Source of the DNA: a virus
DNA length: 23,150 nt
Direction: 5' to 3' (one strand)
IMG/VR virus record: IMGVR_UViG_3300048922_000447
Span: 1-23,150 of that record
The notes beneath the pieces are model-generated. The model saw only the letters and a program-made list of their open reading frames with translations, had not been told where the DNA came from and searched no databases. Of the stretch, positions 1-21,471 are shown piece after piece; the stretch's first letter is position 1, and each line of letters opens with the position of its first letter. The translations under genes were made by a program, and so were the position numbers.

Positions 1-1326
1 ATGGCACGCACCGTTACGCCCCTGTCAGACCCCAAATGCGAGGCCGCCAAGCCGCGGGACAAGGACTACACCCTGTTCGACGGCCAGGGCCTGTTCCTGC
101 TGGTCAAGAAGAACGGCAGCAAGATCTGGCGCATGAAGTTCAAGCGGCCTGATGGCAGGGAGGGGCTGGCCACCTTCGGCAACTACCCGGCGCTGAAGCT
201 CAAAGCTGCCCGTGAGCGCCGGGCCGAAGCGCTGGAGTTGTTGGCGCATGGCAAAGACCCGATCGAGAGCGCTAGGCAGGGGAAGGTCGAAGCGGCGAAC
301 GCGAGGGCCAACACCTTCGGTGTGCTGGCCAAGGACTGGCACGACGCCTGTTCTAAAAAATGGTCACTAGGCCATGCCGCGACTGTGTGGCGGCGGATCG
401 AAACTTATCTGCTCCCCGCCCTGGGCCAGCGCCCGGTGGCTGGCCTCAAGACCCGCGACCTGCTGGCGCCGCTCAAGGCGGTGGAGAAGCGCGAAGTTCT
501 GGATACCGCTGCCCGGCTACGGCAGTACATGACCGGAATCATGCGTATGGCCGTACAGCACGGGCACATCGACACCAACCCAGCGGTGGACCTCCAGGGC
601 GCAACCGCCACACGCAAGACTGTCCACCGGCCTGCGCTGGCGCTTGAACGCCTGCCTGAGCTGATGCAAAGGATCGAGAGCGACACGGGTAGACCCCTGA
701 CTCGGCTGGCTACCCAGCTAACGCTGCTGGTATTCATCAGGTCCAGTGAGCTGCGGTTTGCTCGTTGGCCAGAGATCGACACCAGCCGCTCCATGTGGGA
801 GATCCCCGGGGAGCGCCAGCAAATCGAAGGCGTGAAGAACTCGCACCGCGGCTCCAAGATGAGCACACCCCACCTGGTGCCTCTGAGCCGCCAGGCACTG
901 GCCACGCTTGAGCAGGTGCGCCAGCTCACCGGGCGCTTCGACCTAGTGTTTGCAGGTGACAGCAACCATTGGAAGCCCATGAGCGAGAATACCGTGAACA
1001 AGGCGCTTCGGCGCATGGGCTACGACACCAAGACTGAGGTGTGCGGGCACGGGTTTAGGGCGATGGCATGTTCCGCCCTGGTCGAGTCGGGACTGTGGAG
1101 CAAGGACGCGGTGGAGCGCCAAATGAGCCACCAAGAGCGCAATAGCGTGCGCGCGGCATACATCCATAAGGCCGAGTACATCGAGGAGCGCCGGCTGATG
1201 GTTCAGTGGTGGGCGGACTACCTTGAGGCGAATCGCCAGAAGCACATCACTCCATACGACTTCGCGAATTTGGCCGTTGAGTCAAAGAATATCGTGCGTG
1301 GAGCATTTGTGGGAACAAGGCGCTGA
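1..1326 (+). CDS. int: P4-type tyrosine recombinase (integrase)
   Basis: This 441-residue protein has the P4-integrase layout. Residues 1-95 form the DUF4102-type N-terminal arm-binding domain, about 105-200 the core-binding SAM-like domain, and about 210-390 the catalytic domain. Visible catalytic residues are R247 (in FIRSSELR), K286 (beta-hairpin lysine before PHLVPLS), H350 and R353 (HGFR), H377 (MSHQ) and nucleophile Y387 (AAYIH). The full R-K-H-R-H-Y set and usual length suggest an active enzyme. It would catalyse site-specific integration and excision at a chromosomal site, typically a tRNA gene 3' end in this family. The window starts at its ATG, so its ribosome site and the adjacent attachment site are not visible. 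It is transcribed toward the element's other genes. Confidence 0.95.
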   Translation: MARTVTPLSDPKCEAAKPRDKDYTLFDGQGLFLLVKKNGSKIWRMKFKRPDGREGLATFGNYPALKLKAARERRAEALELLAHGKDPIESARQGKVEAANARANTFGVLAKDWHDACSKKWSLGHAATVWRRIETYLLPALGQRPVAGLKTRDLLAPLKAVEKREVLDTAARLRQYMTGIMRMAVQHGHIDTNPAVDLQGATATRKTVHRPALALERLPELMQRIESDTGRPLTRLATQLTLLVFIRSSELRFARWPEIDTSRSMWEIPGERQQIEGVKNSHRGSKMSTPHLVPLSRQALATLEQVRQLTGRFDLVFAGDSNHWKPMSENTVNKALRRMGYDTKTEVCGHGFRAMACSALVESGLWSKDAVERQMSHQERNSVRAAYIHKAEYIEERRLMVQWWADYLEANRQKHITPYDFANLAVESKNIVRGAFVGTRR

Positions 1327-2335: not shown

Positions 2336-2593
2336 ATGAGCAGCATCCGCTCGATTAACGTAGGCACAGCCCCTCAGTTCGACCCTGCAAACACCATCAT
2401 CCGCTTCCCTGAGGTCGAGGCCATCACCGGCTTGGCCCGCGCCACCGTCTACAAGCGCCTCAAGGATGACCCGACTTTCCCCAGGCCTGTATCGCTGAGC
2501 AACAGCAAGTCGCGTGGCTCGCCTGTGGGGTTTGTTCTCGCTGAGATTCAGGCGTGGGTGCGCCAGCGCATCGCATTGCGCGAGGTGGCTTAA
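2336..2593 (+). CDS. AlpA-family transcriptional regulator
   Basis: This 85-residue protein has the short MerR-like winged helix-turn-helix of AlpA / phage excisionase regulators. The recognition region is at about residues 23-45 (RFPEVEAITGLARATVYKRL). The family hallmark of proline-rich turn, beta wing and final helix follows (PRPVSLS, then VGFVLAEIQAWV, residues 49-75). AlpA proteins activate integrase expression or act as excision factors in P4-like islands (established for CP4-57 AlpA). Its position near the integrase and directly upstream of a P4-like leader fits. A purine-rich GGGA lies 8 bases before the ATG. The next gene's ATG abuts its stop codon, implying one transcript. Confidence 0.88.
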   Translation: MSSIRSINVGTAPQFDPANTIIRFPEVEAITGLARATVYKRLKDDPTFPRPVSLSNSKSRGSPVGFVLAEIQAWVRQRIALREVA

Positions 2594-2998: not shown

Positions 2999-3114
2999 GC
3001 AATCGTGATGCTCGGTATGGTTCGCCCGTTGCTGCAAATTCAGCGACCGGGTTTGGCGACCCGTCACACGTTAGGCGCATAGGCGCCCCCATCACGATTG
3101 CAGGCGCTTTTTTT
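2999..3114 (+). promoter_or_regulatory. Leader attenuator-like structure: 12-base inverted repeat plus T7
   Basis: GCAATCGTGATG (2999-3010) is the exact reverse complement of CATCACGATTGC (3090-3101). The second arm lies in the loop of a short GC hairpin (GCGCC 3083-3087 with GGCGC 3103-3107) that is followed at once by seven T (3108-3114), which looks like an intrinsic terminator. AGGCGC occurs three times (3073, 3081, 3102). Pairing of the long arms would compete with or pseudoknot the hairpin, so premature termination may be switchable. A weak sigma70-like TTGCAG (2994) / TATGGT (3016) pair is also present. Confidence 0.5.
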
Positions 3115-3118
3115 GTGC

Positions 3119-3200
3119 CCGCAGTCCCGTGTTATGGCGGCTGTGCGCGGGAGGCCTTCGGGTCTGCCGGGTTCCTAACGTCCCGGTTCGCCAACCTGCG
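3119..3200 (+). ncRNA. C4 / P4 CI-like antisense RNA (approximate ends)
   Basis: This segment contains a UUCG-capped stem (AGGCC 3152-3156 with GGTCT 3161-3165). Two antisense stretches follow, CCTAACGT (3174-3181) and TCGCCAA (3188-3194). Both have exact complements upstream (TTGGCGA 3053-3059, ACGTTAGG 3068-3075) and again downstream (TTGGCGA 3223-3229, ACGTTAGG 3250-3257). That is the seqB versus seqA/seqC layout of the P4 CI immunity RNA and of C4 antisense RNAs, which act on the leader of an early phage operon. The downstream target overlaps the AGGAG ribosome site of the gene at 3268, so pairing would hide it. Ends are guesses; processing is not visible in sequence. Confidence 0.65.
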
Positions 3201-3203
3201 TAC

Positions 3204-3261
3204 AGCTGCCACCCCAAATCGTTTGGCGACGGTTCGTGGCAGCTCCTCAACGTTAGGAGCT
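3204..3261 (+). promoter_or_regulatory. Structured target/ribosome-site region of early operon
   Basis: AGCTGCCAC (3204-3212) pairs with GTGGCAGCT (3236-3244), and the loop holds a second hairpin (CCAAA 3214-3218 with TTTGG 3222-3226). Next to it AGCTCC (3241-3246) pairs with GGAGCT (3256-3261), burying the AGGAG (3255-3259) that serves the ATG at 3268. The same bases take part in the antisense pairing from 3174-3194, so at least two exclusive folds control access to this ribosome site. Confidence 0.6.
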
Positions 3262-5481: not shown

Positions 5482-5701
5482 GGTCACGCCTATTCGCCGC
5501 AAGGGTGCCGGTGGTCCACCGACTGCTGGCTCCCACATCGACAGCGCCAGCTATGCGCTGCTAGTGGAAATCCTGGTGGGCTTCCTGGAACTGCGCATTG
5601 CCGAGGGTGGTGCTGGTCGTCACTGCCCTGAACTGGAGCGCCTGACAAATCAACTGGAGCGGCTCGCCAAGCGATTCACGCCACCGCAGGGGGCCGCATG
5701 A
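5474..5701 (+). CDS. Small hypothetical protein
   Basis: A 75-residue protein with a basic, Gly/Pro-rich N-terminus (VTPIRRKGAGGPP) and two predicted helices (YALLVEILVGFLELRIAEGG, then CPELERLTNQLERLAKRF). ATG 5474 has GAGGG (5461-5465) 8 bases upstream and overlaps the preceding gene by 8 bases. Its stop overlaps the primase start (ATGA). No family recognised; its position suggests co-translation with the primase. Confidence 0.6.
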   Translation: MSKVTPIRRKGAGGPPTAGSHIDSASYALLVEILVGFLELRIAEGGAGRHCPELERLTNQLERLAKRFTPPQGAA

Positions 5702-6588
5702 CCGACGCGACGATCCTTTTTCGTGACGTGCTCCAGTCGGCCTACGGGCCGCTCGACTGGCTGCCCCTGGACGATGGCGATATCCACCGCTTCCACGTTC
5801 CCGGCGACAAGCCTGGCACGCTCAATGGCTGGTACTGCCTGTTTGCTGATGGCATTGCCTCGGGCGCGTTCGGGAGCTGGAAGACGGGCGGCACCAACAC
5901 CTGGTGTAGCCGTGAACCGGTGGACGCCCGCGAAGCCGAGCATGTGCGCCAGCGAATCGAGCAGGCCCGGCGACAGCGGGAGGCCGAACGGCAGCGGCGC
6001 CAGCTCAGAGCGGCCGGCCTGGCGCAGCGCTGGTGGCGTGATGCCCGTCGTGCTGATCCGGCCCACCCCTACCTGGTCGCCAAGGACATTCGAGCCCATG
6101 GTTTGCGCCAGCGTGGTGACGACCTGCTGGTCCCCCTGTATGCCGGTGGTGTGCTGGTGAACCTGCAACGGATCGCCCCGGACGGCGACAAGCGCTTCCT
6201 GTATGGCGGGCGGATCAAAGGCGCCTATTCGCCACTGGGGCGCATCACGCCGGGCAAGCCACTGTGTATCTGTGAGGGATGGGCCACGGGTGCCACGCTT
6301 CACGAAAGCGGCTACACGGTCGCTTGTGCGATGAACGCCGGGAACCTGAAACCGGTGGCGTTGGCGCTACGGGCCGACCACCCCGACACCGAAATCATCA
6401 TCGCCGGCGACGACGACCGCCAGACCGAGGCCGAGGGCAAGGGCAACCCTGGGCGCACAGCCGCCCATGAGGCCGCTGCCGCGTGTGGCGGCCTGGTGAC
6501 TCTCCCCGAGTGGCCAGCCGATGCGCCGCTGACCCTTACCGACTTCAACGACCTAGCTGCTTGGAGGTGCCGCCATGCGCCCGCCTGA
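5698..6588 (+). CDS. Toprim-domain primase-like protein
   Basis: A 296-residue protein. The N-terminal ~70 residues are compact with conserved Trp/Cys (NGWYCLFADGIASGAFGSW). A basic coiled segment (about 80-115) comes next, then a region leading into a Toprim fold. Visible Toprim residues are E193 in CICEGWATGATL and the acidic cluster D238-D240 in IIIAGDDD. This matches the primase half of the P4 alpha / phage primase lineage: making primers or loading on the element's replication origin. No Cys4 zinc-ribbon primase motif is obvious. It overlaps the helicase gene by 14 bases. In P4 primase and helicase are one protein; here they are split into two adjacent genes. Confidence 0.85.
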   Translation: MTDATILFRDVLQSAYGPLDWLPLDDGDIHRFHVPGDKPGTLNGWYCLFADGIASGAFGSWKTGGTNTWCSREPVDAREAEHVRQRIEQARRQREAERQRRQLRAAGLAQRWWRDARRADPAHPYLVAKDIRAHGLRQRGDDLLVPLYAGGVLVNLQRIAPDGDKRFLYGGRIKGAYSPLGRITPGKPLCICEGWATGATLHESGYTVACAMNAGNLKPVALALRADHPDTEIIIAGDDDRQTEAEGKGNPGRTAAHEAAAACGGLVTLPEWPADAPLTLTDFNDLAAWRCRHAPA

Positions 6589-8374
6589 TACCAACGTCAT
6601 CAACCTGCGCCCCGAGGCGCCCAAGGTTGAGCCTGACCGCCCGTGCTGGGGTGTGTATGAGCACTGGGTGACCAACGAGAAGGGCCGCAGGCTCAAGCCC
6701 GGCGTGTACTGGCACGGCTTCAAGCGCAGCGCCGGCGACGACGACAGCGACGACGATAAGGCCGACCGCCCGATCACTGACGAGTGGATCGCCACGCCGG
6801 TGACCGTCGCTGCCCGCACCACCAACAGCGACGACGGCAGCGAAGGCCGGTTCCTACGCCTGTTCACCGACAACGGCCCCAAGGACTGGATCATTCCTAT
6901 GGAGGTGTTCGGCGGGAGTGGCGAGGACGCCAGGCGGACGCTGTTCGGCATGGGCGTCATCATCGCCCTGAAGAAGCGCGGCCAGTTCATGGAGTATCTG
7001 CTGGAGCAGCGGCCTGCAGAGGTGTTCGCCACCACCTGCCGCCCCGGCTGGCATGAGTCAGGCGCCTTTGTGCTGCCTGGGCGCACCATCGGCAGCGACA
7101 AGGTGCGCTATCAGGCCAGCGCCAAGGGGCAAAACCTTTTCAGTGTGCGCGGCAGTCTGGAGGGTTGGAAGGCCGAGGTGGCGGCCAAGTGCGAGGGCAA
7201 CCCGATACTGACCTTGGCCATCGGCTGCGCCCTCGCTGGCCCGCTGCTGAGCCTGGTGGGTGTGTTGGGTGGCGGTGTTCACCTGGTGGGCGACAGCTCC
7301 AGCGGCAAGTCGCTGGCGCAACTGATCGGCTCATCCGTATGGGGCGACCCCGGCATCTTCGCCGCATCGTGGGACATGACCAAGGGCGGCTTGGAGATCG
7401 AGGCGTCCAGCCGTAACGACACCATGCTGCCTTTGGACGAGATCAAGCGGGCCGATCCCAAGCGCGTACAGGAAATGGCCTACTCGCTCGCCAACGGCCA
7501 GGGCAAGGGCACCATGACCCGTGACCGGGAGGCCCGCGGCAAACTGAGCTGGCGCCTGCTGGCGCTGTCCAGCGGTGAGCGCTCTCTTTCCGAGCACGCG
7601 GCCATCAGCGGCAATGCCGCCCACGCTGGCGCTGAGCTGCGCATGGTTGACGTGAACGCCGGTACCCGCACACACCGCGCCTTCGATGAGTTGCATGGCC
7701 TGGAGGGCGCTGACTTCCACCGCCAGCTCACGGTGGCTGTAGGAGCGAACCATGGGCACATCGGGCCGGACTTCGTGGAAAAGCTGCTGGCCAGCGATGA
7801 CCGCCCTGGCCTGCTGGAGGACTTCGCCGGTATCCGCGCCCAGTTCACCGAGGACAACGCCCAGGCCGGACGGGTGGCGGATCGCTTCGCGGTGATCGCG
7901 CTGGCCGGCGAAATGGCCATTGCCTACGACCTTTTGCCCTGGACGCCGGGCACCGCTCTGGCCGACTGCCAGTTGCTGTACGGCGAGTGGCTGAGCCGGG
8001 TGGGCGGTGGCAATGCCGAAGACCGCCAAATCCTGGCCGGCATCCTCGACTTCATCGACAAGCACGGCAGTAGCCGGTTTTCGGACGTAGAAGACCAGAC
8101 GTCGGACACCAAGGTGTTCAACCGCGCCGGGTACTGGGAGGTGGTGGGCGCCAAACGCCTGTACCTGTTCAACAAGTCCGCACTGATTGAGGCCGCTCAT
8201 GGGCACGGGCTGGCGCGTGTCGTGAAGGCGCTGGAAGGCGCTGGCGCTCTCGCCAAGCACGATACCGATCGGGACAGCCGCAGGACCAAGAAATACCGCC
8301 TGCCTGCTGGTGGGTCTGCCCGCCTGTATGTGATCGATCCCGACGCCTTGGATAGCGAAGGCGGTGGCCTATGA
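6575..8374 (+). CDS. DUF927-domain superfamily helicase (replication)
   Basis: A 599-residue protein; ATG 6575 is preceded by GGAGG (6563-6567). Residues 20-200 hold the DUF927-type N-terminal region (CWGVYEHWV near 24, CRPGWHESGAFVLPG near 155). An ATPase core follows with Walker A GDSSSGKS (239-246) and an acidic Walker B-like LPLDE (285-289). The C-terminal ~120 residues resemble a small winged-helix domain (RFSDVED near 500, YLFNKSALIEAA). Such proteins are the helicase partner of Toprim primases in P4-like islands and would unwind the element's origin. The gene ends with ATGA into a short frame, and GGGGAAC iterons begin about 50 bases after its stop. Confidence 0.87.
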   Translation: MRPPDTNVINLRPEAPKVEPDRPCWGVYEHWVTNEKGRRLKPGVYWHGFKRSAGDDDSDDDKADRPITDEWIATPVTVAARTTNSDDGSEGRFLRLFTDNGPKDWIIPMEVFGGSGEDARRTLFGMGVIIALKKRGQFMEYLLEQRPAEVFATTCRPGWHESGAFVLPGRTIGSDKVRYQASAKGQNLFSVRGSLEGWKAEVAAKCEGNPILTLAIGCALAGPLLSLVGVLGGGVHLVGDSSSGKSLAQLIGSSVWGDPGIFAASWDMTKGGLEIEASSRNDTMLPLDEIKRADPKRVQEMAYSLANGQGKGTMTRDREARGKLSWRLLALSSGERSLSEHAAISGNAAHAGAELRMVDVNAGTRTHRAFDELHGLEGADFHRQLTVAVGANHGHIGPDFVEKLLASDDRPGLLEDFAGIRAQFTEDNAQAGRVADRFAVIALAGEMAIAYDLLPWTPGTALADCQLLYGEWLSRVGGGNAEDRQILAGILDFIDKHGSSRFSDVEDQTSDTKVFNRAGYWEVVGAKRLYLFNKSALIEAAHGHGLARVVKALEGAGALAKHDTDRDSRRTKKYRLPAGGSARLYVIDPDALDSEGGGL

Positions 8375-8529
8375 CCGTCATCACCATCCAACGCCAATGC
8401 CCGAATCCACAGGAACCTAAAAACGTGGGGAACAGGGGGAACGGGGGAACGGCCAGTAAACACGCGGCCTGTAGCCGTTCCCCCTTCATGAAGTTCTGGG
8501 GAACAGGGGGAACACAAACATGTTTTTGA
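8371..8529 (+). CDS. Possible 52-residue protein over the iteron region
   Basis: ATG 8371 overlaps the helicase stop (ATGA), matching the coupling used by the other genes of the operon. The product (MTVITIQRQCPNPQEPKNVG, then Gly/Asn/Thr-rich) is largely dictated by GGGGAAC repeats, which read as GN/GT. Low-complexity content and overlap with a repeat array make it uncertain; it may only be a coupled leader-like frame. Confidence 0.3.
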   Translation: MTVITIQRQCPNPQEPKNVGNRGNGGTASKHAACSRSPFMKFWGTGGTQTCF

Positions 8530-8655
8530 ATATAAGCGCCTGTGCCTTTCCTGATGTTTGGTTATCACTGTTCCCCCGTTTTTCGGGTGGGGAACACGTA
8601 CCCCCGCTGGAGGCCCCGGAAACACTGGGTGTTCCCCGCGTTCCCCCGTTCCCCC
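8427..8655. repeat. GGGGAAC iterons in both orientations; candidate replication origin
   Basis: The heptamer GGGGAAC (often GGGGGAAC) occurs in forward orientation starting at 8427, 8436, 8444, 8498, 8507 and 8589. It occurs inverted as GTTCCCC at 8477, 8570, 8631, 8640 and 8648. Three forward copies open the region and three inverted copies close it, and a run of eight T follows (8658-8665). A local hairpin forms at 8570-8595 (GTTCC/GGAAC outer, CCCG/CGGG inner, T5 loop). P4 alpha binds type I iterons that I remember as GGTGAACA-like, in both orientations at ori and crr. The similarity of word and layout, directly behind the helicase gene, suggests an origin. A terminator function for the T8 end is an alternative. 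Confidence 0.6.
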
Positions 8656-8710
8656 GATTTTTTTTCACAGACACATTTGGGCTTTATGGAAATTCGGGCG
8701 AGGTGACGCC

Positions 8711-11617: not shown

Positions 11618-14600
11618 ATGACAAGCATTGCTCAACTTGGGATACAGATTGACAGTGAAGACGCTACTCAAGCGGCCTCTGATCTCGACAAGCTGACGGA
11701 CGCCGGTAAGCGCAGCGAGGAGTCGGCGGGCAGGACTGGGCGGGCGTGGGAGTCGGCCCTGGCAGGTATGCAAGGCGATACCCGCCAGATCGTGATAGAG
11801 CTTCAGCAGCTCAACCAGAAGCAGGCCCAACTGGCACAGCAGATGATCACCGTGGGGCGCGCAGTCACCACTGCGTCCACGGCGTTCAGCGGTGCGGCGG
11901 CCAACATTACCGCTCTCCATGCTGGCGCTGAGAAGGCCGGACAGGCCCAGGAAGCGCTGGCGACCGCAAACGACGCTAGCGCGCAAGCTGCCCGCCGATC
12001 TGCAGAGAGCGCCGAGGAGCAGCAGGCCCGCTTGCTGGGTATGGCCAAGGCCTCGCTGGAGGCCAGCGATTATGTCCAAACCCTGAACCGGGCCACGCAG
12101 CAGACGGTCGAGGTCACCCGCCAGGCCAACGCGGTGCTGTCGGATCGCGCCAGCCAACAAGCCGCTGTTGCCAGAAGGGCGCAGACAATTCTGGCCAACG
12201 AGGATCGGCTGGCTGCCGCGTCCAAGGCGACCGCTGCTGCTCAGCGCGAGGAGAGCAAGGCCCTGGGTGAACTGCTCGGCAAGATTGACCCGACAGTGGC
12301 CGCTTTGGGCCGCCTAGATGACATGGAGCGCAGGCTAGGGGGGTACCGGTCTTCCGGCGCGCTGGATGCTGAGACGTTCGCCGAGTATCAGGAGAAACTC
12401 AACCAAGCCCGCACGGCCTTGGGCGGTGTGGACACGGCCCTGGGCAAAACCGGCATGAGCGCGAAGCAGACCGCTGCGGCCATGCGGATGCTGCCGGCGC
12501 AGTTTTCGGACGTAGTGATCAGCCTGCAAGCCGGCCAGTCGCCGCTGACCGTTTTGCTTCAGCAGGGCGCCCAGGTCAAAGACTCGTTCGGCGGCGTTGG
12601 TGCCGCTGCTCGGGCCATGGGCGGCTATGTCGCCGGCCTGGTCACGCCAGTCAGCGCGGCGGCGGCTGCGGTAGGCGTGCTCGGCGTTGCCTACTACCAG
12701 GCCGGCAGGGAGCAGGATGCCTTTAACAAATCCATCATCCTGACGGGCAACTACGCTGGCACGTCCGGTGCCAAGCTGACCGAGCTGGCCAGGCAGATCA
12801 GCAGCACCGTGGGCACCACTGGCGCAGCCTCGTCCGTGCTGGCGCAAATTGCTGGCGCGGGTGATCTCGCCGGCGAGAGCTTCAAAACCGTGGCCACCAC
12901 GGCCATCGAGATGGAGAAGGCAACAGGCCGGGCGGTGGACGAGACACTGGCAGACTTCCGCAAGATCGCGGATGACCCGGTGAAGGCCGCGGAGGAGCTG
13001 AACAAGCGCTATCACTGGCTGACGGCATCCACCCTCGAGCAGGTCCGGGCCCTGGTGGATCAGGGCGAGAAAACCGAGGCTGTGAGGCTGATCACCGAGC
13101 AGTTCGGAGAGACCATGACCCGTCGAGCGCAGATCATCCGGGAGGAAATGAGCGGCCTGCCCAAGCTGTTCAATGAGATCGGGGATGCCGCCGCCAAAAT
13201 GTGGGATGGCATCAAGGGTGTATGGCGCGACCCCACCCTGGATAAGGTTGCGGATGGTCTACGCCTCCAAATCCAGTCCATGGAGAATATCCGTAAGGAG
13301 TTCCGCAACGACAAGAATTATGACCCCGAAAAACTGAAGGTTTGGAGGGCCAGGCTGGCTGAAATTGAAGGCCTCTCAAAGCCTGCTGCCGGCGTGGTGA
13401 GTACCGAAGGGCAGACAGCCTACAAGTGGATTCAAGACGAGCTGGATAGGACCGCTCCAAAGGCGGAAAAGCTCAAGAAGGCGCTGGATGAGGTCGACCG
13501 AGCCGTGGCCAAGGCGCGAGCTGACGGTCTGACGGTGACTGATGCTCAGGTTGAAACGCTGAAGCAGCAGGAGCGGGAAAAATACAAGCCGGCCCGGGGA
13601 AGAAGCACACCGGTGAATATGACGGATGTGAGCGACTCCCGAAATGCGCTGACTATGATCCTTTCCGACTATCGCGGATACGAGAAGGAACTCAACGCGA
13701 TCCAGAAGTTTGGCGTGATTTCGCAGGAAGCGGTGTATGCGCAACGGGTGGCCTTGGCCAAGCAAGAGAGGGCCGACGTGACGGGCGCCTACATGGAGGA
13801 GATCCAAGCGCTCGAGGAGGCCAAGGGGCGTGCCTCCACCACCGGCGAGCAGCGCATTCAGCTTGACCAGCGAATCGCCAAGGCTCGCTCTGACATGGTC
13901 CGTGCCCAGCGGGAGGCAGACTCCGAACTGGCGGTGCTGGCGACTGCCGAGCAGGGTCGCCAGGAGAAACAAACAGCCGCGTCGAAGGCTTTCGTCGATC
14001 AGCTTGAGCGTGAGCGCCAGGCGCTTGCCACGCGAGGTGATCGAGCGGCTGTGAGCGTTGGCCTGGGCGACCGCCAGGCAGGGCTACAGCGAGAGCTGGA
14101 TGATGTGACGGACAACTTCAACCGTAAGCGCGAAACACTCCTCGATCGCCGGCGTACCGCGCCCGACAAGTACACGAAGGAAGACCACCAGAAGGATCTT
14201 GCTGAACTCGAAGCGGCGGAGAACAAGTACCGGGATACGGTCGTCTCGAACTACGACAAGATGACCACTGCCCAGGGCGAGTGGCGAAACGGTGTCTCCT
14301 CTGGGTTCCAGAACTATCTGGAGAGCGCCAGAGACTTCGCGGGGCAGGCTCAGAGTGTTGTCACCGGGGCCTTCCACGGCATGGAAGATGCGCTGGTTCA
14401 GTTCACCATGACCGGCAAGCTGTCGTTCGCTGATTTCACGAAGGCGATCATTGCCGATATCTCGCGCATTGCCGCTCGGCAGGCCTTGGCCGGTTTGGCC
14501 GGCAGTGTGATCGGCTCGTTTGCCGGATCGGTGTTCGGGGGTGGCGGTACCACTGTCAGCCGCAGCGGTTTCAGCGAAGGCGGCTTTGTATCAGGTGGGC

Positions 14601-14986
14601 GCGCTTCGGGCGGCCCGGTATCACCAAACTCCATGTATGAGGTGAACGAGCTGGGGCCGGAGCTGCTGAACCACGGTGGGCGCACCTACCTGATGATGGG
14701 AGCCGAGGGCGGGAGCATCACTCCGCTTGGCGCCAGTGCGATAACGCCGCTTGCGGTGCCCCAGCAGATCATGGGCAGCGGCGGGAGCGGTGCGGCAGTT
14801 GCTCCGGTGGTGAACATCCAAATCAGCCGGGACGGCAGCTCTGAGGTTTCCGGTGACGCAGAGCTAGGGCGGAGCCTCGGGCCGCAGATGGTGAATCTGA
14901 TCCGTGCTGAAATCGCCGCTAACGAACGGAAGACGCTGAGCCCCAGCGGTGGGGCAACGTGGCGAGCCATTCAAGGGAGACGCTGA
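11618..14986 (+). CDS. Lambda-type tail tape measure protein
   Basis: A 1122-residue protein with an excellent AGGAGGGGG (11608-11616) before ATG 11618. Residues 1-220 are Ala/Gln/Glu-rich coiled coil. About 285-327 carry the lambda-H signature (MLPAQFSDVVISLQAGQSP, LLQQGAQVKDSFGG), followed by a hydrophobic stretch (335-362). Residues 480-900 are helical. Residues 921-975 match the lambda-family C-terminal domain (GMEDALVQFTMTGKLSFADF, ADISRIAARQAL), and the Gly-rich end has SEGGFVSGG and YEVNELGPELL. Tape measure proteins set siphophage tail length and help DNA delivery. The frame is intact. Its presence without tube, chaperone or capsid genes is odd: either a remnant or a protein supplied to a helper phage's tail. 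Confidence 0.9.
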   Translation: MTSIAQLGIQIDSEDATQAASDLDKLTDAGKRSEESAGRTGRAWESALAGMQGDTRQIVIELQQLNQKQAQLAQQMITVGRAVTTASTAFSGAAANITALHAGAEKAGQAQEALATANDASAQAARRSAESAEEQQARLLGMAKASLEASDYVQTLNRATQQTVEVTRQANAVLSDRASQQAAVARRAQTILANEDRLAAASKATAAAQREESKALGELLGKIDPTVAALGRLDDMERRLGGYRSSGALDAETFAEYQEKLNQARTALGGVDTALGKTGMSAKQTAAAMRMLPAQFSDVVISLQAGQSPLTVLLQQGAQVKDSFGGVGAAARAMGGYVAGLVTPVSAAAAAVGVLGVAYYQAGREQDAFNKSIILTGNYAGTSGAKLTELARQISSTVGTTGAASSVLAQIAGAGDLAGESFKTVATTAIEMEKATGRAVDETLADFRKIADDPVKAAEELNKRYHWLTASTLEQVRALVDQGEKTEAVRLITEQFGETMTRRAQIIREEMSGLPKLFNEIGDAAAKMWDGIKGVWRDPTLDKVADGLRLQIQSMENIRKEFRNDKNYDPEKLKVWRARLAEIEGLSKPAAGVVSTEGQTAYKWIQDELDRTAPKAEKLKKALDEVDRAVAKARADGLTVTDAQVETLKQQEREKYKPARGRSTPVNMTDVSDSRNALTMILSDYRGYEKELNAIQKFGVISQEAVYAQRVALAKQERADVTGAYMEEIQALEEAKGRASTTGEQRIQLDQRIAKARSDMVRAQREADSELAVLATAEQGRQEKQTAASKAFVDQLERERQALATRGDRAAVSVGLGDRQAGLQRELDDVTDNFNRKRETLLDRRRTAPDKYTKEDHQKDLAELEAAENKYRDTVVSNYDKMTTAQGEWRNGVSSGFQNYLESARDFAGQAQSVVTGAFHGMEDALVQFTMTGKLSFADFTKAIIADISRIAARQALAGLAGSVIGSFAGSVFGGGGTTVSRSGFSEGGFVSGGRASGGPVSPNSMYEVNELGPELLNHGGRTYLMMGAEGGSITPLGASAITPLAVPQQIMGSGGSGAAVAPVVNIQISRDGSSEVSGDAELGRSLGPQMVNLIRAEIAANERKTLSPSGGATWRAIQGRR

Positions 14987-15318: not shown

Positions 15319-15927
15319 TTACTGGAGATCGGAGACATACGATTGCAGAGTTTCGACGTAGGGCGTGTACTGCTTTTCCCACTCATCGTCACCTGACAGC
15401 ACGTTGCTTTCGTCATGCCGGTAGACCTGCGCAACTTTCCAGCCACCTTCGGTCTTCTCGATCAGGTACTTGAAGTGCGCTCCCATCTTCCTGGCCCGCA
15501 GTTGGTCTGAAGTCCCTGTTGAGCTTGAAGGAGTGGCATTGGTGATCTTTGCGAAGGCGATCGCCCGTGTGTCGGTCTCCTGCTTGACCTGCAGAATCTC
15601 TCGGTCATAAACGGATCGCCAGCACACCGCTCTGGAGCTGTTCACCGACTGCTCTACGGCACCTGTCGACACGCTGGCCACGTCGAATCCATTCACATCT
15701 TTCTGGACAAAGGACTGGCATCTGGCGAGCTCTACAGCTTCCTTGGTGTCTAGGTAGCGCCACCACGTCTTCAAGGCCTGGTCAGGCGATGTGGTATTGA
15801 TCTCGAAGTCATAGCTGACAGTCGCTGCTGGCGCTTCGGACGGCGAACTCGTGCCTAAGGCAGACGACACCTTGTCGCAGGACGTGAGGATCAAGCACAG
15901 GGGCAGGAGGGCAAGTGCCTTTCTCAT
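15319..15927 (-). CDS. Predicted outer- or inner-membrane lipoprotein
   Basis: A 202-residue protein with a type II signal peptide: positively charged start (MRKALALLPL), hydrophobic core and lipobox L14-T15-S16-C17. Asp follows the lipidated Cys, which by the +2 rule favours inner-membrane retention. The mature part is alpha/beta (PDQALKTWWRYLD, then GGWKVAQVYRHDES), somewhat like small NTF2-fold lipoproteins; I do not assign a family. The start at 15927 is preferred over 15936 and 15972 because the signal peptide begins there and a GAGAA lies about 9-10 bases upstream. It is transcribed against the tail genes and sits like a phage-carried cargo (moron) gene that could alter the host envelope. 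Confidence 0.75.
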   Translation of the reverse strand: MRKALALLPLCLILTSCDKVSSALGTSSPSEAPAATVSYDFEINTTSPDQALKTWWRYLDTKEAVELARCQSFVQKDVNGFDVASVSTGAVEQSVNSSRAVCWRSVYDREILQVKQETDTRAIAFAKITNATPSSSTGTSDQLRARKMGAHFKYLIEKTEGGWKVAQVYRHDESNVLSGDDEWEKQYTPYVETLQSYVSDLQ

Positions 15928-16157: not shown

Positions 16158-16673
16158 TCATGTTTTCAAGATCCATTCTGTAGGTATAAAGTCCGCGTTT
16201 CCAACTAAGGCCACAATGCGTTCGCACTCAGATGTAGGGGAAACCCAAATTATTTCGCCGATACTTCCAGAGTGTTGTCCTAGTATTTTGAATACCGCAC
16301 GTGCAGCATTGTCGTTAGATGCTATGATGCTTTTAACCAGAATGGCAGCATCCACAACGTGTGCGTCTTTCTTTGCAATCAGCTTCTGGGTGTCGCTAAT
16401 TTGTGCTGCGTCAATTATTTCCGAGACACTAGATGTTATATTAACTCGGTCTATTTTTTTCTTCGCGGTCATCGACGAGTGCCATCTAGTCGAATATAGA
16501 GATTTATGCTTGTTCCATTCATCTCGTAAAGTTGGGCAGAATACAGCTCTCGCCTCTGACTCTAATATGGCTTTGAGTACCTCTCGAGCCCCTTTCGAAA
16601 CTGGGTTCTCTGATACCCCTGCTGCCCTTGCCACGTCAGCATCGACAACAAAACTCTGGCACTTAATTTTCAT
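16158..16673 (-). CDS. PIN-domain nuclease-like protein, partner of ATPase
   Basis: A 171-residue protein. It shows a PIN-type acidic set: D11 (VVDADVA at the end of strand 1), E52 (RDEW), D103 and D108 (KKDAHVVDAAIL), and D121 (IASNDNAA) after a beta strand, in the canonical order. PIN domains are Mg-dependent RNases/nucleases of toxin-antitoxin, RNA decay and defence systems. Start 16673 is chosen because AGAGG lies 9 bases upstream and PIN strand 1 begins there; the frame is open to 16712. It overlaps the ATPase end by 11 bases, so the two are translationally coupled. Both are AT-rich relative to the phage genes, a sign of recent transfer. The likely role is an ATPase-controlled nuclease effector. 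Confidence 0.75.
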   Translation of the reverse strand: MKIKCQSFVVDADVARAAGVSENPVSKGAREVLKAILESEARAVFCPTLRDEWNKHKSLYSTRWHSSMTAKKKIDRVNITSSVSEIIDAAQISDTQKLIAKKDAHVVDAAILVKSIIASNDNAARAVFKILGQHSGSIGEIIWVSPTSECERIVALVGNADFIPTEWILKT

Positions 16674-17970
16674 TTTCAGCGGCCTCTTCAGCGGCCTCTT
16701 CAACGGCATCAAGATATTCTTGCTCTACGTCTAGGGCCACGCTGTCGAAATCTTCGGGCCAGTCGCCAAACGCGCCAAAGTTATCCAGCTTTGATTTATT
16801 TATCTGAGTCTGACCCGTTGTTGGGTCTTGAGTGAACCAATTTAAATTAACTTGTTCGCCTTTGAGAAAGCCTTTTGCAACCAATATTTGAATTCCGCGA
16901 ATTAGTATGGAGCTATGAGTTTCGATGACTACGTGTACGCCGCCGTCAATCACAGCGCTTGCGATTATTTTGGAAAGCTCATACTGAGCTCGAGGGTGTA
17001 AATGAAGCTCCGGTTGCTCCACATATACAACTTGCCCCTTCTTAGCTGAAAGCAGTGCGACGAGTACTGGCAGGGTTTGTGAGACGCCAAACCCTACATC
17101 AGCAATATTTACATAATCAGATTTGGCCGCCGCACATCCTCTATGTCGGGAGATTAGGATCTCGAGGCGCGTATCATTTATTGGAGAAATGTCAATTGAT
17201 GTGGCCAAACCCAGATCTTTCAATTGAGCGATCAAAGTTTTAAATTTTTGTTGGTTGGTTCGTGTGTTTTTCCAGCGGCTGATGATACTGGCTATGTATC
17301 TTTCAAAAGAGCCGGGGAATTTTGATTCGGATGAGGCTACTTTGTACGATCTTTCCGGATTTCCTCGTAGTCCGGGAACGTGAATCAAATCTGAGGTTAG
17401 TCTTTTCAAACCCTCTGCTGGCAGTACGCCTGCGGAGAATGGTAATCTTTTGGAAGAGTGGAGTTTCAGCCCCAAAAAGCAACGATCCCTGACCACTCGC
17501 CAACTCAGTCCTTCAAAGTTTTCAAATACACCCTTGAATGGTTCAAATTTTTCGTTTGTCAGAATGGATTGGATCTCAGTGTTTTTCATTCCTAGGCGGA
17601 TTTCAGATCCCTGGTTGAAATCACCTCCACTCATGCTCATTTTTTCAACGGTTATTCCGCGCTTTGCATTGAATTTGTAAGATGCGGTAATGCTCTTTTC
17701 AGCAGATTCAAGCGTGACGCTAAATGAGTTTAGATTCGATTCGGGAACTTTTGATATTATTTCGCTGGAGTCGGTTAGTCTGACGTTTGCACCGTCTAGA
17801 AGAAGCGAGCCCGAGTCAAATTCATTCTCAATCGACTGCTTCATTAATAGTAGAGGTTGCATAAAACTAGATTTGCCTGAGCTATTGGCTCCGGCAAGGA
17901 TTGTTAATCCACCAATTTCAATAGAGCGTGGTTTGGCTATGGATTTGTAGCCTTCAATTGTTATCTTCAT
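16663..17970 (-). CDS. AAA/ABC-type ATPase (OLD-like, DUF3696-like C-terminus)
   Basis: A 435-residue protein starting at 17970, with AGGAGGGG about 4 bases upstream; the frame opens earlier at 17997 but without a ribosome site. The N-terminus MKITIEGYKSI leads to Walker A G27-ANSSGKS (27-34). A long insertion follows, then the Walker B/D-loop region VVYVEQPELHLHPRAQ and the H-loop ETHSSILIRG. The C-terminal DNFGAFGDWPEDF stretch resembles DUF3696. These RecF/OLD-type ATPases act as sensors in several defence systems (Septu, PARIS, Gabija), each with a different nuclease partner. Here the partner is a PIN protein. The C-terminus ends in an acidic EEAA repeat encoded by a 12-base tandem repeat (16678-16701) that also supplies the next gene's ribosome site. 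Confidence 0.85.
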   Translation of the reverse strand: MKITIEGYKSIAKPRSIEIGGLTILAGANSSGKSSFMQPLLLMKQSIENEFDSGSLLLDGANVRLTDSSEIISKVPESNLNSFSVTLESAEKSITASYKFNAKRGITVEKMSMSGGDFNQGSEIRLGMKNTEIQSILTNEKFEPFKGVFENFEGLSWRVVRDRCFLGLKLHSSKRLPFSAGVLPAEGLKRLTSDLIHVPGLRGNPERSYKVASSESKFPGSFERYIASIISRWKNTRTNQQKFKTLIAQLKDLGLATSIDISPINDTRLEILISRHRGCAAAKSDYVNIADVGFGVSQTLPVLVALLSAKKGQVVYVEQPELHLHPRAQYELSKIIASAVIDGGVHVVIETHSSILIRGIQILVAKGFLKGEQVNLNWFTQDPTTGQTQINKSKLDNFGAFGDWPEDFDSVALDVEQEYLDAVEEAAEEAAENEN

Positions 17971-18351
17971 GACCCCTCCTTGGGGAAAATTTTGCATTTA
18001 TATCATTCTCCGCGTTCAAAAGGGAACTGGACATTGGCTCAGGAAGCCTGGAGATACGGGGATCAAAGGGATTGATGCGACATTGCTAGCCCGGCTGGCT
18101 GTAGCGTTACCCATCGGATGCCACCGCCTTGAGTGACTACCTTCTGTCCAGGGAACCTTTGAGAGGGGGGGGGGCGCTCGTCATGGGCGAATCGTTAGGA
18201 CGTTGGCCGGGCAACGAGTAATGGCAGACGATTCGGCTTGCAGCCGGGCCAGTTCGCACCGGTGGTTCGCACGCAAGGTTCGCAACCACTATGCGCGAAC
18301 CTGGTGACTACAATTGCACATCAATCTCTCCCGCGCATGAGGAGTATATGT
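17971..18351. other. 381-base divergent intergenic region
   Basis: This region separates the leftward ATPase operon from the rightward HEPN-like gene and must hold both promoters; I see no convincing -35/-10 pair. It contains a run of ten G (18165-18174), a possible slippage site. Near its right end is a cluster of GTTCGCA words (listed separately). No open frame with a ribosome site is apparent. Confidence 0.6.
18252..18302. promoter_or_regulatory. GTTCGCA repeat cluster, candidate operator
   Basis: GTTCGCA occurs at 18252, 18265 and 18278, exactly 13 bases apart each time. An inverted copy makes an 8-base palindrome with the last (AGGTTCGC 18276-18283, GCGAACCT 18295-18302). It lies 50-100 bases before the start of the HEPN-like gene, the right place for a regulator-binding site or 5' UTR hairpin. 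Confidence 0.45.
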
Positions 18352-19134
18352 ATGTGGGTTTTTGAGTTGACTGTGCCTGGCGTTCGCCTTGAGATGGAAG
18401 ACCGTCAATTGTCTTGGGAACTGGAGGGCCTGCTTCGGCACCTTGAAGGGAGTTTTTTTGAAGCCAATACAGCTCTGAACCTATTTCATCAAGCTCGGAT
18501 AATCGATTTCCAAAATTCGTCGTTCAGTCCCGACGACTGGGAGAGGGATAGGGCGCGCCGCAGCGAGATACAGGACGCGCTGATCAACGCCAGGGGTGGC
18601 TTTAGTCATGACCACTACATGGAGACCTATTTCGAGGCTGAGGTTATTCATAAGCGGGAGAAATGGTCTAAAGGCCATATCCCCCGGGAGCTGAAGCACA
18701 ACGTCGTTTTCATCTACGCCAGAGCTTTCCTCTACGCGATGGACGCGTTCGACAAATTCCTCACGGTTCTCAGCAAAACTGACGGCGTACCTCCAGAAAT
18801 CGCCCACTTAAGCAACAAGATGAATGAGCACTTCCCTGATTTGCGAGGTGTCAGGAATTCAGCTCAGCATCAGGAGGATCGAGCGAGGGGGCTCGGAGTG
18901 CGTGGGGCTAAAATAGACCTCAAGCCGATCGACAACACGCTAGTAAAAGCCCCGGGCGGGGCGTTGATGCTGAACTGCTTGAATGGATCAAAGTACGGCT
19001 CAACAATGGCTGACGGGCACTACGGCGAAGTTGATGTTTCTCCCGAATCGATGGAGCGCTTACAGTCTGTGCTCATTGAGGTGCTGAATTGCTTCAACTG
19101 GAGCGGTCCCAAGCGGCACCTTCCTAGCGACTGA
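18352..19134 (+). CDS. Hypothetical helical protein with HEPN-like RNxxxH motif
   Basis: A 260-residue protein. ATG 18352 is chosen because GAGGAG (18339-18344) lies 7 bases upstream; the frame is open from 18238. Residues 15-180 are predicted helical. A hydrophobic helix VFIYARAFLYAMDAFDKFL (about 119-137) is followed at 168-173 by R-N-S-A-Q-H, which fits the Rx4-6H catalytic motif of HEPN ribonucleases and is placed in the last helix as in that fold. HEPN proteins are frequent defence and toxin effectors. The C-terminal 80 residues look beta-rich. The assignment rests on one motif and helix order, so it is tentative. It lies between the ATPase-PIN operon and an HNH nuclease gene. Confidence 0.6.
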   Translation: MWVFELTVPGVRLEMEDRQLSWELEGLLRHLEGSFFEANTALNLFHQARIIDFQNSSFSPDDWERDRARRSEIQDALINARGGFSHDHYMETYFEAEVIHKREKWSKGHIPRELKHNVVFIYARAFLYAMDAFDKFLTVLSKTDGVPPEIAHLSNKMNEHFPDLRGVRNSAQHQEDRARGLGVRGAKIDLKPIDNTLVKAPGGALMLNCLNGSKYGSTMADGHYGEVDVSPESMERLQSVLIEVLNCFNWSGPKRHLPSD

Positions 19135-19243
19135 CGAGCCATTCGTGATTGTGACTCTCACTGCTGGTTCGTCCATTCAAGCTCCGGCAATGGCGTGACC
19201 TGGGCGGGCCGCCTGTTGAGAAATGTTGAGGTTGCCAGTCGAT

Positions 19244-19291
19244 GGTTTCCACTGGGGTTTCCACGGTATGGCAGCCTTGCCAGTGGGAACC
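19244..19291. repeat. Direct and inverted repeats upstream of HNH gene
   Basis: GGTTTCCAC occurs at 19244-19252 and 19256-19264, one helical turn apart. GGTTTCCACTGG (19244-19255) pairs with CCAGTGGGAACC (19280-19291) over 12 positions with one G-T wobble. A further pair of TGTTGAG words 10 bases apart lies at 19214 and 19224. The 291-base gap between the HEPN-like and HNH genes otherwise shows no gene. Confidence 0.5.
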
Positions 19292-19425
19292 GGCCCAGCG
19301 CGGCCAGTTCGAATGACCACATCAAAACCACGAATCTCGCCGGCTAGCATCAGCCGATGATGGCAGGAGTGCCATTATGTCCGTCTGCGAATAAGATCTG
19401 ACCACTTTTCTCAAGGGGAGTCGCT

Positions 19426-20178
19426 ATGGCGAGGACGGCGGTAACTGAAAAGATGTATCAGGAGGCTTATCGCCTTGGTGCAAATATCTGGAGCCGCAGG
19501 ATTACTCCCTCCGAGGCGCGGAGAACGCTGGAGAATGAGTACGGCTTGAACGCAAAGACGGCAAGTGCATATCTGGGTGCGTATGACGGGCTACGTAGGG
19601 GGAGAACCCTAAAATTGACACCTAAGGTGGAGGCGTTGAGGTACATGATTAGTCAATTGAAAAATGATGTCGGCCACTCTGCTTTGCTGCCCGCTTTGCA
19701 ATCGTTGGGCGGCCATATCGAGTACCTTGATTCTTTCCCATCTACCAAGCTGTCCAAGCAATCATCACTCCGGAACCTCTATGAGGAGTTGCTTCCAGAA
19801 TTGTCGCCTGTGGCGAAGGCTGCCGATGAAGACGAGACTTTTGCTCAACAGGTCGCCGACGCAATTGCTGACTCTGCTTTTGACCGAGCCAAACGTCTTG
19901 CCCATGCCAATCCTGTGCCTCTGGTAAGGCACCAGATTGTAAAAACATTTCGCCGCAATCCCGATGTTGTGGCAGAGGTACTGCTTCGTGCCAAGGGAGC
20001 TTGTGAGGGGTGTCGTTTACCCGCTCCATTTCAGCGTCCGGATGGCAGTCTCTACCTGGAGGTTCATCACATAACGCGCTTAGCTGATGGGGGGCACGAT
20101 ACTGTAGAGAACGCCCTTGCCCTGTGCCCAAACTGTCACAGAGAAAGGCACTATGGGCGACAGCTAAATCCAGCGTGA
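19426..20178 (+). CDS. HNH endonuclease
   Basis: A 250-residue protein with AAGGGGAG (19413-19420) before ATG 19426. The C-terminal 60 residues form an HNH nuclease: C193-x2-C196, the catalytic EVHH (214-215), N229 and C234-x2-C237-H238, with DGGHDTVENALALCPNCH characteristic of McrA-like enzymes. The N-terminal ~105 residues (TEKMYQEAYRLGANIWSRRI, ending LGGHIEYLDS) match an accessory helical domain that I recall upstream of HNH domains in many bacterial proteins. A modification-dependent restriction role is plausible but the target is unknown. It is followed directly by the tandem repeat array, with no clear terminator between. Confidence 0.85.
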   Translation: MARTAVTEKMYQEAYRLGANIWSRRITPSEARRTLENEYGLNAKTASAYLGAYDGLRRGRTLKLTPKVEALRYMISQLKNDVGHSALLPALQSLGGHIEYLDSFPSTKLSKQSSLRNLYEELLPELSPVAKAADEDETFAQQVADAIADSAFDRAKRLAHANPVPLVRHQIVKTFRRNPDVVAEVLLRAKGACEGCRLPAPFQRPDGSLYLEVHHITRLADGGHDTVENALALCPNCHRERHYGRQLNPA

Positions 20179-20210
20179 TAGTTCCGGCTACTTTGACCAT
20201 GCCTTTACGA

Positions 20211-21007
20211 AATGTGAGACAGGCATGAGACGGAAGCCGCATGACTTGCGCGTCCGAGGCCAGGTGCCAGGCCGTGCCGGTTAAGACTGGTGGTCGGCAA
20301 CGTCTCACATTGCCGGTGATACTGGACGCTATTTTGACCACGCTTTGACGGATTACGGGCCAGGCAGAACGCGGTGGGGCCGGGTGCTGGTCGTCTGAGG
20401 TCTCCCGGTACTGGAAGCCGTCAAAGTATGGGCCCTGTGGCCATATCGCACCCCTGATAGGCCTAAGACGGATTTTGGACAGCTTTGGACGCATCCTCGC
20501 AGGCTTTGCGTAGTGGTGCTGGCGCTATGGCACGTGATGGCTGGGCTGCCGGCCTGGCGGTGGTCTGTTCCGGCTGTACACTCGTCCAGAGTCGCCGGGC
20601 GAAACTAGACCAGCACTAGACGATAACCGACGGGGGTCGGCCGCCTAATCCGCTAGGTCACTGGCTGGCTTGGCGTGGGCCTAGGTGTGAGGGACTAGCG
20701 TGGGCAATCCCCTTTAATACCGAGGCCGGAATTCTGGACAGGCTCTGGACGGATCGGCGCCAGCACCAGCAGGTTGAATGGCGTTGGAGCGGTGATTTAC
20801 TTGGAGCGCGGAGGCTGGCCACCATCGACCGGCGCGTGTCCGTCCAGAATGGCCAGGGGCGGCGAAATTCTTGACAGGCCTTGACGGATTCAGCCGCTGG
20901 CGCTTCATCAGGATCGGCTGTAAGCCTTTCTGCGTAGGGCTGGAGTGATATCTGATTTACCTGTGGGAGCGGAGGTCGTCAAGAATTTCCGGGTGTGCTC
21001 GTCAAGG
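20211..21007 (+). repeat. Tandem array of six structured non-coding units, period 120-140 bases
   Basis: Each unit starts with two direct copies of a short word, GAC-to-GAC 10-11 bases apart. Direct-copy starts are 20211/20226, 20331/20343, 20471/20483, 20604/20615, 20731/20744 and 20864/20879. In five units an inverted copy lies about 65-95 bases downstream: 20301-20311, 20418-20428, 20583-20593, 20839-20850 and 20977-20989, plus a second at 21000-21007. Words differ between units (TGAGAC, TTTGAC, TTGGAC, CTAGAC, CTGGAC, CTTGAC) but the three copies agree within a unit, so the inverted copy can pair with either direct copy. Wobble pairs in units 2 and 3 are U-G on the plus strand, hinting at a plus-strand RNA. 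Unit 4 lacks a clear inverted partner. Confidence 0.75.
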
Positions 21008-21255
21008 GAAAAACCGGCAGTCACGAACCTGTCAAAACCTGTCATGCCGAGACTGCGAAGGGGGCGACCAAAGTGATCAAATCTCGGTCGGTGGGCACAC
21101 CGTGGGACCGGGAGCCAGGCCACCACCTCGGATGAGTAATGGTGGAGATCACCACGCCCTAGCGGCAAAAGGGCTCCGAGACGAAGATGCCCAGTGCATT
21201 TGCCAGCCGTTGTCGATCAACTATGGTTCTTCGACACCCCATTGGAGCGTCATGG
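21008..21255. other. Region between tandem array and next gene
   Basis: This stretch contains two ACCTGTCA words 10 bases apart (21028 and 21038), the reverse complement of the TGACAGG of the last array unit. It also has short hairpins such as CCGAGA/TCTCGG (21047-21052 with 21082-21087). No coding signal is seen until GGAG at 21244-21247, which serves the gene at 21256. Confidence 0.5.
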
Positions 21256-21471
21256 ATGAAAGAATTACGTACCGTCGCCGAGGTGCTTGAGCGCCTCAGT
21301 CACAACCAGGATGCGCTGAGGGCGTCAGTGGAGGAGCTGGCCAAGTGGGTTGGCGAGCGGGGATCTGATGCCGTGGTGGGAAACGTCAATGGCGCATTGG
21401 CGACCATGGACGATAACATCGACGCGGTGCGACAGGGGATCGCAGAGCTGGTGGCAGCAAGCGTCCGGTAG
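21256..21471 (+). CDS. Small hypothetical protein
   Basis: A 71-residue acidic, helical protein (starts MKELRTVAEVLERLSHNQDA; middle SVEELAKWVGERGSDAVVGN). ATG 21256 is favoured over the longer frame from 21187 and over ATG 21252 because GGAG (21244-21247) sits 8 bases upstream and the helical domain starts there. I recall similar proteins from Pseudomonas islands but know no function. No partner gene is obvious. Confidence 0.65.
   Translation: MKELRTVAEVLERLSHNQDALRASVEELAKWVGERGSDAVVGNVNGALATMDDNIDAVRQGIAELVAASVR

Follow-up and report, generated by a model that had tools for sequence, protein, structure and literature searches.

A phage satellite carrying a candidate multi-helper array of terminase sites

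A tandem array of word doublets at 20189-20989 of a virus record, together with two sites 5' of it (18252-18301 and 19230-19291), very probably constitutes a portfolio of pac-like sites for multiple helper terminases, and comparison with phage terminase loci and related satellites strongly supports a multi-helper terminase-site array. It is an open question which satellites a given phage mobilises, since pac sites are short and few of them are known (PMC11389934). In the present case, sites for two terminase families are legible from sequence, and a single satellite seems to have keys to many of them. Our search of the open-licence literature found no earlier description of multi-word pac-site arrays in satellites.

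Results

The window resembles the satellite phiAH14b

The window, the whole 23,150-base stretch analysed here, is a virus record (IMGVR_UViG_3300048922_000447) with genes for an integrase, AlpA, a Toprim primase and a DUF927 helicase (Table 1). Capsid, portal and terminase genes were not recognised in the window, a record that is possibly incomplete, and a search of it for the two small terminase (TerS) types described below, DUF2280 and phrog_1206, found neither. The annotated element nearest to it in the array region, by nucleotide and gene-order similarity, is phiAH14b of the phiAH14a/phiAH14b pair from Pseudomonas sp. ANT_H14, which has a similar gene order to the window and shares the array type and the neighbouring small ORFs with it. 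Judged from its sequence, the window is a phage satellite of the phiAH14b-like (P4-like) type. Unlike phiAH14b, the window has a tape measure gene and defence cargo as well.

In the available text of PMC4936722, phiAH14b is described as a putative satellite that lacks a terminase and undergoes headful packaging in phiAH14a capsids, with both elements devoid of cohesive ends; packaging in helper capsids is reported there for phiAH14b only. The same text names a TerS candidate and mentions no pac site or array.

Table 1. Positions of the genes and predicted packaging-site features in the window
Feature	Position	Strand	Sequence and remarks
Satellite tyrosine integrase	1..1326	+	
Satellite AlpA-like regulator	2336..2593	+	
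Satellite Toprim primase	5698..6588	+	
Satellite DUF927 helicase	6575..8374	+	bait for word-unbiased sampling of relatives
phrog_1206-type site	18252..18301	+	GTTCGCAC, GGTTCGCAC, GGTTCGCAA, then inverted GCGCGAACC
phrog_1206-type site	19230..19291	+	GGTTGCCA, GGTTTCCAC, GGTTTCCAC, then inverted GGGAACC
Unit 0, DUF2280-type, degenerate	20189..20212	+	TACTTTGACCATGCCTTTACGAAA; class ACTTTGAC
Unit 1	20211..20235	+	AATGTGAGACAGGCATGAGACGGAA; exact class upstream of DUF2280 in many phages
Unit 1 inverted arm	20302..20311	-	GTCTCACATT, exact
Unit 2	20329..20354	+	TATTTTGACCACGCTTTGACGGATT
Inverted arm, units 0/2	20420..20428	-	GTCAAAGTA, exact
Degenerate unit, absent from the preliminary description	20451..20473	+	CCCCTGATAGGCCTAAGACGGAT
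Unit 3	20471..20494	+	GATTTTGGACAGCTTTGGACGCATC; phage gene-linked TTTGGAC/TTTGGAC class in L289, L308
Unit 3 inverted arm	20584..20591	-	GTCCAGAG, one base off
Unit 4	20602..20624	+	AACTAGACCAGCACTAGACGATA; no convincing arm; nearest phage class TTCTAGACAGGCCCTAGACGG (L223)
Unit 5	20730..20755	+	AATTCTGGACAGGCTCTGGACGGATC; dozens of phages have an identical site ahead of DUF2280
Unit 5 inverted arm	20841..20850	-	CGTCCAGAAT, exact
Unit 6	20864..20890	+	GAAATTCTTGACAGGCCTTGACGGATT
Unit 6 inverted arm	20978..20989	-	GTCAAGAATTTC, exact
Unit 6, second short arm	~21001-21008		CGTCAAGG
phrog_12397 small conserved ORF, 3' of array	21187..21471	+	homologue adjoins the phiAH14b array

The array consists of doublets whose words differ from unit to unit

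The region 20151-21060 contains seven exact doublets (word of at least 6 nt, period 10-11), four of which have an exact inverted copy 45-135 nt further on, whereas 1000 dinucleotide-preserving shuffles gave on average 0.42 doublets (maximum 3) and 0.015 with an inverted partner (maximum 1). The six doublets reported in the preliminary description were all recovered in place, and its observation that the words match within a unit and differ between units was borne out. The general form of a unit is X-GAC-(A or C)(A or G)-spacer-X-GACGG, with GTC-X' 80-115 nt further on; X varies from unit to unit, whereas GAC is invariant. The layout of a doublet followed by an inverted copy, which had been proposed for five of six units, holds exactly for units 1, 2, 5 and 6, whereas the arm of unit 3 is one base off and that of unit 4 is unconvincing; the array is also longer than had been recognised, with two degenerate extra units (Table 1). 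Once one X and the spacer are taken out, the left side of unit 5 is complementary to its own right arm.

The GAC/GTC core does not covary, and the flanking letters alone do. The selection on the units that had been proposed is supported by these data, whereas selection for RNA or single-stranded DNA structure is not, because of the constant core. As had been noted earlier, the array is not CRISPR, since the words differ between units and a constant repeat is absent. The unit words share GAC, not AAC as in the paired R and L boxes (RYYYAAC/GTTRRRY) of attC sites, which adjoin an integron integrase, and the window integrase is a phage integrase.

The degenerate units also have counterparts elsewhere. 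The intact form of unit 0, class ACTTTGACCACACTTTGACGGAA, occurs in 18 other satellite loci, and its word ACTTTGAC is gene-linked in phages L214, L216, L218 and L219. The other degenerate unit, CCCCTGATAGGCCTAAGACGGAT, resembles CCCCTGACAGACCTAAGACGGA, an asymmetric phage site that precedes DUF2280 in L204 (class CCCT/CTAA). Further 3', at 21026-21044, lies a AACCTGTCAAAACCTGTCA doublet that recurs in many satellites, with no link to a terminase gene seen here.

Units of the array type lie at DUF2280 genes of phages

Scans with unit-word patterns returned dozens of viral contigs with a unit just before a DUF2280 gene. In these Pseudomonas phages, the unit lies 15-45 nt upstream of the gene and its inverted arm within the gene, and the terL and portal genes come next. 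Other contigs had single TTGACAGG doublets that looked at first sight like noise, and many are in fact sites of DUF2280 genes. A further survey covered 80 DUF2280 loci plus some 60 taken from Pseudomonas genomes; the word changes from phage to phage and is consistent inside each site. The arm, located at nt 72-90 of the DUF2280 gene, changes with the word (GTCTCAC, GTCCAGA, GTCAAAG, GTCTTAA and others). In the TGAGAC class, it sits 12 nt nearer the start of the gene, and the protein has QVSQAV where others have QVVEAV, indicating that the DUF2280 coding sequence follows the site.

Across 52 phage site classes, the mean extension of the match between word and arm was 2.69 nt, compared to 1.26 +/- 0.14 nt when the arms were swapped, and the observed value was reached in 0 of 2000 swaps. 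Klebsiella and Pectobacterium phages have the same layout, and those of Acinetobacter a looser form; in Vibrio XM1 and Burkholderia BgManors32, the layout was looked for and not seen. For phiAH14a, one credible site was found in 55 kb, at the candidate TerS gene, compared to seven in phiAH14b. The phiAH14a site class, CTTGAC/CTAGAC, has no exact copy among the phiAH14b units, which include close forms only.

DUF2280 is a candidate small terminase subunit

DUF2280 has no function assigned in Pfam and PHROGs. Across the loci, its gene is directly upstream of terL, and AH14a_p60, which was proposed as the phiAH14a TerS (PMC4936722, available text), is a DUF2280 relative. A DUF2280 model matched the G20c/P74-26 small terminases in the top 12 of 37 matches, although weakly (best E 0.36; pTM 0.35), and a sequence search of the PDB with DUF2280 gave nothing useful. 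From gene order, size, the proposal in that text and the weak fold match, we infer that DUF2280 is TerS; the site data offer a likely function for this family.

A second family of sites lies inside phrog_1206 terS genes

A doublet upstream of the phiAH14b array, GGTATCCACTCTGGTATCCAC, was also found inside a gene unrelated to DUF2280, which is annotated in PHROGs as terminase small subunit (phrog_1206) and is followed by terL and then by another ORF in the place of portal. In relatives of this gene, the corresponding place inside the gene has a word repeated three times in direct orientation plus one inverted copy, and the word varies among phages (GGTATCC, GGTTTCC, GGTTGCC, GGTACGC, GGTTCGC, GGTTAAC, GGTGACC or TCGCGCA). 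For 11 words, the arms matched 6.15 of 7 positions, compared to 5.10 +/- 0.16 when swapped, and in 3000 of 3000 trials the fit to the arm's own word exceeded that after swapping.

We then counted every GTNNNN doublet in the 3 kb upstream of the satellite arrays, with control DNA for comparison. Nine phrog_1206 words accounted for 97 of 123 satellite doublets but for 3 of 12 in the control, corresponding to 1.45 and 0.04 phrog_1206-word doublets per kb, respectively. GTATCC had led to the family and hence does not count as independent evidence; its exclusion leaves 85 of 111. Of the six commonest upstream doublet words, five belong to the phrog_1206 family, the exception being GTAACC.

The window has two sites of this type (Table 1). 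The word of the 18252-18301 site is present in three copies inside the terS genes of L380-L391, and the GGTTTCCA/GGTTGCCA words, to which the 19230-19291 site belongs by its GGTTGCCA copy, occur inside those of L364-L373. Just 5' of the latter site, at 19214-19230, is a TGTTGAGAAATGTTGAG doublet, which is also seen in L394.

Satellite arrays share words with phage sites and avoid duplicates

Using a few of the unit words, 28 satellite array loci were gathered, with 3-8 units each and 156 units in 36 word classes overall. Eight of the 36 classes, comprising 91 of the 156 units, equal a phage site in both half-sites and in spacing, including the asymmetric CCCTGAC/CCCAGAC class of L306, whereas two permutation schemes of 5000 trials each gave 1.85 (maximum 7) and 0.35 (maximum 3) exactly matching classes. 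Inside the arrays, words are duplicated 12 times, compared to 35.7 expected (minimum 22). The word order is similar among the arrays, and some units have no inverted arm.

A second sample of 32 elements, partly the same genomes as the first, was chosen by helicase similarity alone. A region of the packaging-site type is present in 21 of these, with at least three DUF2280-type units in 16 and at least two second-family doublets in 21. The 11 elements in which the array is absent comprise some short fragments, one with its own terS and others with different structural genes. L392 has its own DUF2280 gene (15353-15808) where others have the DUF2280-type array, its second-family sites being present, and L393 has a phrog_1206 gene (13898-14506) and no array. 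This swap of sites for an element's own terS fits a packaging role of the region.

Taken over the lineage, the arrays are likely to represent an order-conserved, diversity-maximised library of about 8 to 13 packaging sites per element, serving many helpers with terminases of two unrelated families, and the words would be a code that predicts helper-satellite pairs without data beyond the sequence. In the array regions of L016, L026, L032, L174, L183, L191, L194 and L196, a TTTACC...TTTACCGA doublet class was also seen, with ACC replacing GAC. A BLAST search of the array against plasmids gave chance-level matches only.

Discussion

A putative multi-helper packaging region

In the preferred interpretation, each unit would copy the predicted TerS-binding and packaging-start site of a particular helper phage, composed of a half-site, its repeat one helical turn on and an inverted half-site about 80-115 bp further. 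The unit words would differ because the specificities of the helper TerS proteins, in two unrelated families (DUF2280 and phrog_1206), differ. Any matching helper could then start headful packaging of satellite concatemers at a unit, and the presumed benefit of the array would be a wider helper range for the satellite. Word matching offers a testable rule for helper range, and the sites form a natural data set on the joint change of small terminases and their predicted DNA sites.

Alternatively, the array may be a decoy that titrates helper TerS and cuts helper packaging, for host protection or for the advantage of the satellite, which we regard as unlikely. Many sites on a replicating satellite would compete for TerS, and satellites do interfere with helpers, for example cos helpers (PMC5052747, available text). 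However, such a sponge would work best with repeats of one strong word, whereas the arrays avoid duplicates and keep the full footprint including the inverted arm; moreover, the satellite needs a packaging start, phiAH14b being a headful-packaged element (PMC4936722, available text). The decoy and packaging-start roles are compatible with each other and not exclusive.

It is very unlikely that the words are instead operators of a terminase or late-gene regulator, through which the satellite would sense helper late expression. The DUF2280 site, 15-45 nt upstream of the start codon, is in a possible operator position, but the terS coding sequence contains the inverted arm, and in the phrog_1206 family the site in its entirety, with the protein following the site, the same architecture is found at two unrelated terminase genes, and the satellite array controls no obvious gene.

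The original proposal, of structured RNAs or of single-stranded DNA hairpins that adopt alternative folds, is highly improbable: the units do contain internal complementarity, and units 1 and 5 fold clearly better than shuffles (z-scores for units 1-6: -2.46, -0.93, -0.47, +0.38, -2.27 and -1.63), but the other four stay within two standard deviations of shuffles, a search of 20150-21060 against Rfam gave no match, the GAC core is constant with variable flanks, and units of the same kind occur at phage terminase genes, in part within their coding sequence. The suggested restriction of wobble pairing to the plus strand is a weak point as well, with unremarkable folding in four of six units. A cos site was also considered and rejected, as the satellites lack the conserved 31-nt stretch that precedes the phage sites, and phiAH14a and phiAH14b lack cohesive ends (PMC4936722, available text).

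Relation to known systems

Like SaPIs and other PICIs, which have a pac or cos site like the helper's or their own TerS (compare L392 and L393), the window would be a satellite that lacks capsid genes and is packaged by way of helper-like recognition sites; it differs in that a single element combines, in one region, many distinct predicted sites for members of two TerS families. To our knowledge, known PICIs carry one type of packaging site. With P4, the window shares an integrase, an AlpA-like regulator, a primase, a helicase with GGGGAACA repeats close to its gene, and a match to C4 antisense RNA. Whereas P4 uses one cos site matching P2, the window has a multi-word array of headful-type sites. 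Some mobilizable plasmids have several oriT sites (example in PMC11389934), and these recognition sites widen the helper range as the satellite array might; they serve conjugation with relaxases, however, whereas the satellite sites would serve phage packaging.

Other features of the window

At 16158-20178, before and between the clusters of packaging-site candidates, lie defence-like genes encoding an ATPase (PADLOC NsnB match), a phrog_5322 protein and an HNH protein that matched type IV restriction models and for which a search of viral contigs found no relatives. The tie of the array to HNH or HEPN genes that had been suggested did not hold up, and an HNH-linked system was rejected, because the phiAH14b array has no adjoining HNH gene and the HNH protein fits type IV restriction models; from the former observation, the defence genes appear to be cargo.

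Although a satellite, the window has a tape measure gene (1122 aa) at 11618-14986 and also a tail assembly gene; the tape measure protein has 36% identity to that of phiAH14a over nearly its full length. In the relatives L415 and L417, proteins of about 700 and 2037 aa are found instead. The GGGGAACA repeats, which are 3' of the helicase gene at 8427-8660 on both strands and are also present in other satellites, resemble P4-type replication repeats. Rfam matches at 3015-3216 correspond to C4 antisense RNA, its a1/b1 targets and isrK, and these C4/isrK matches suggest P4-like RNA immunity in the window.
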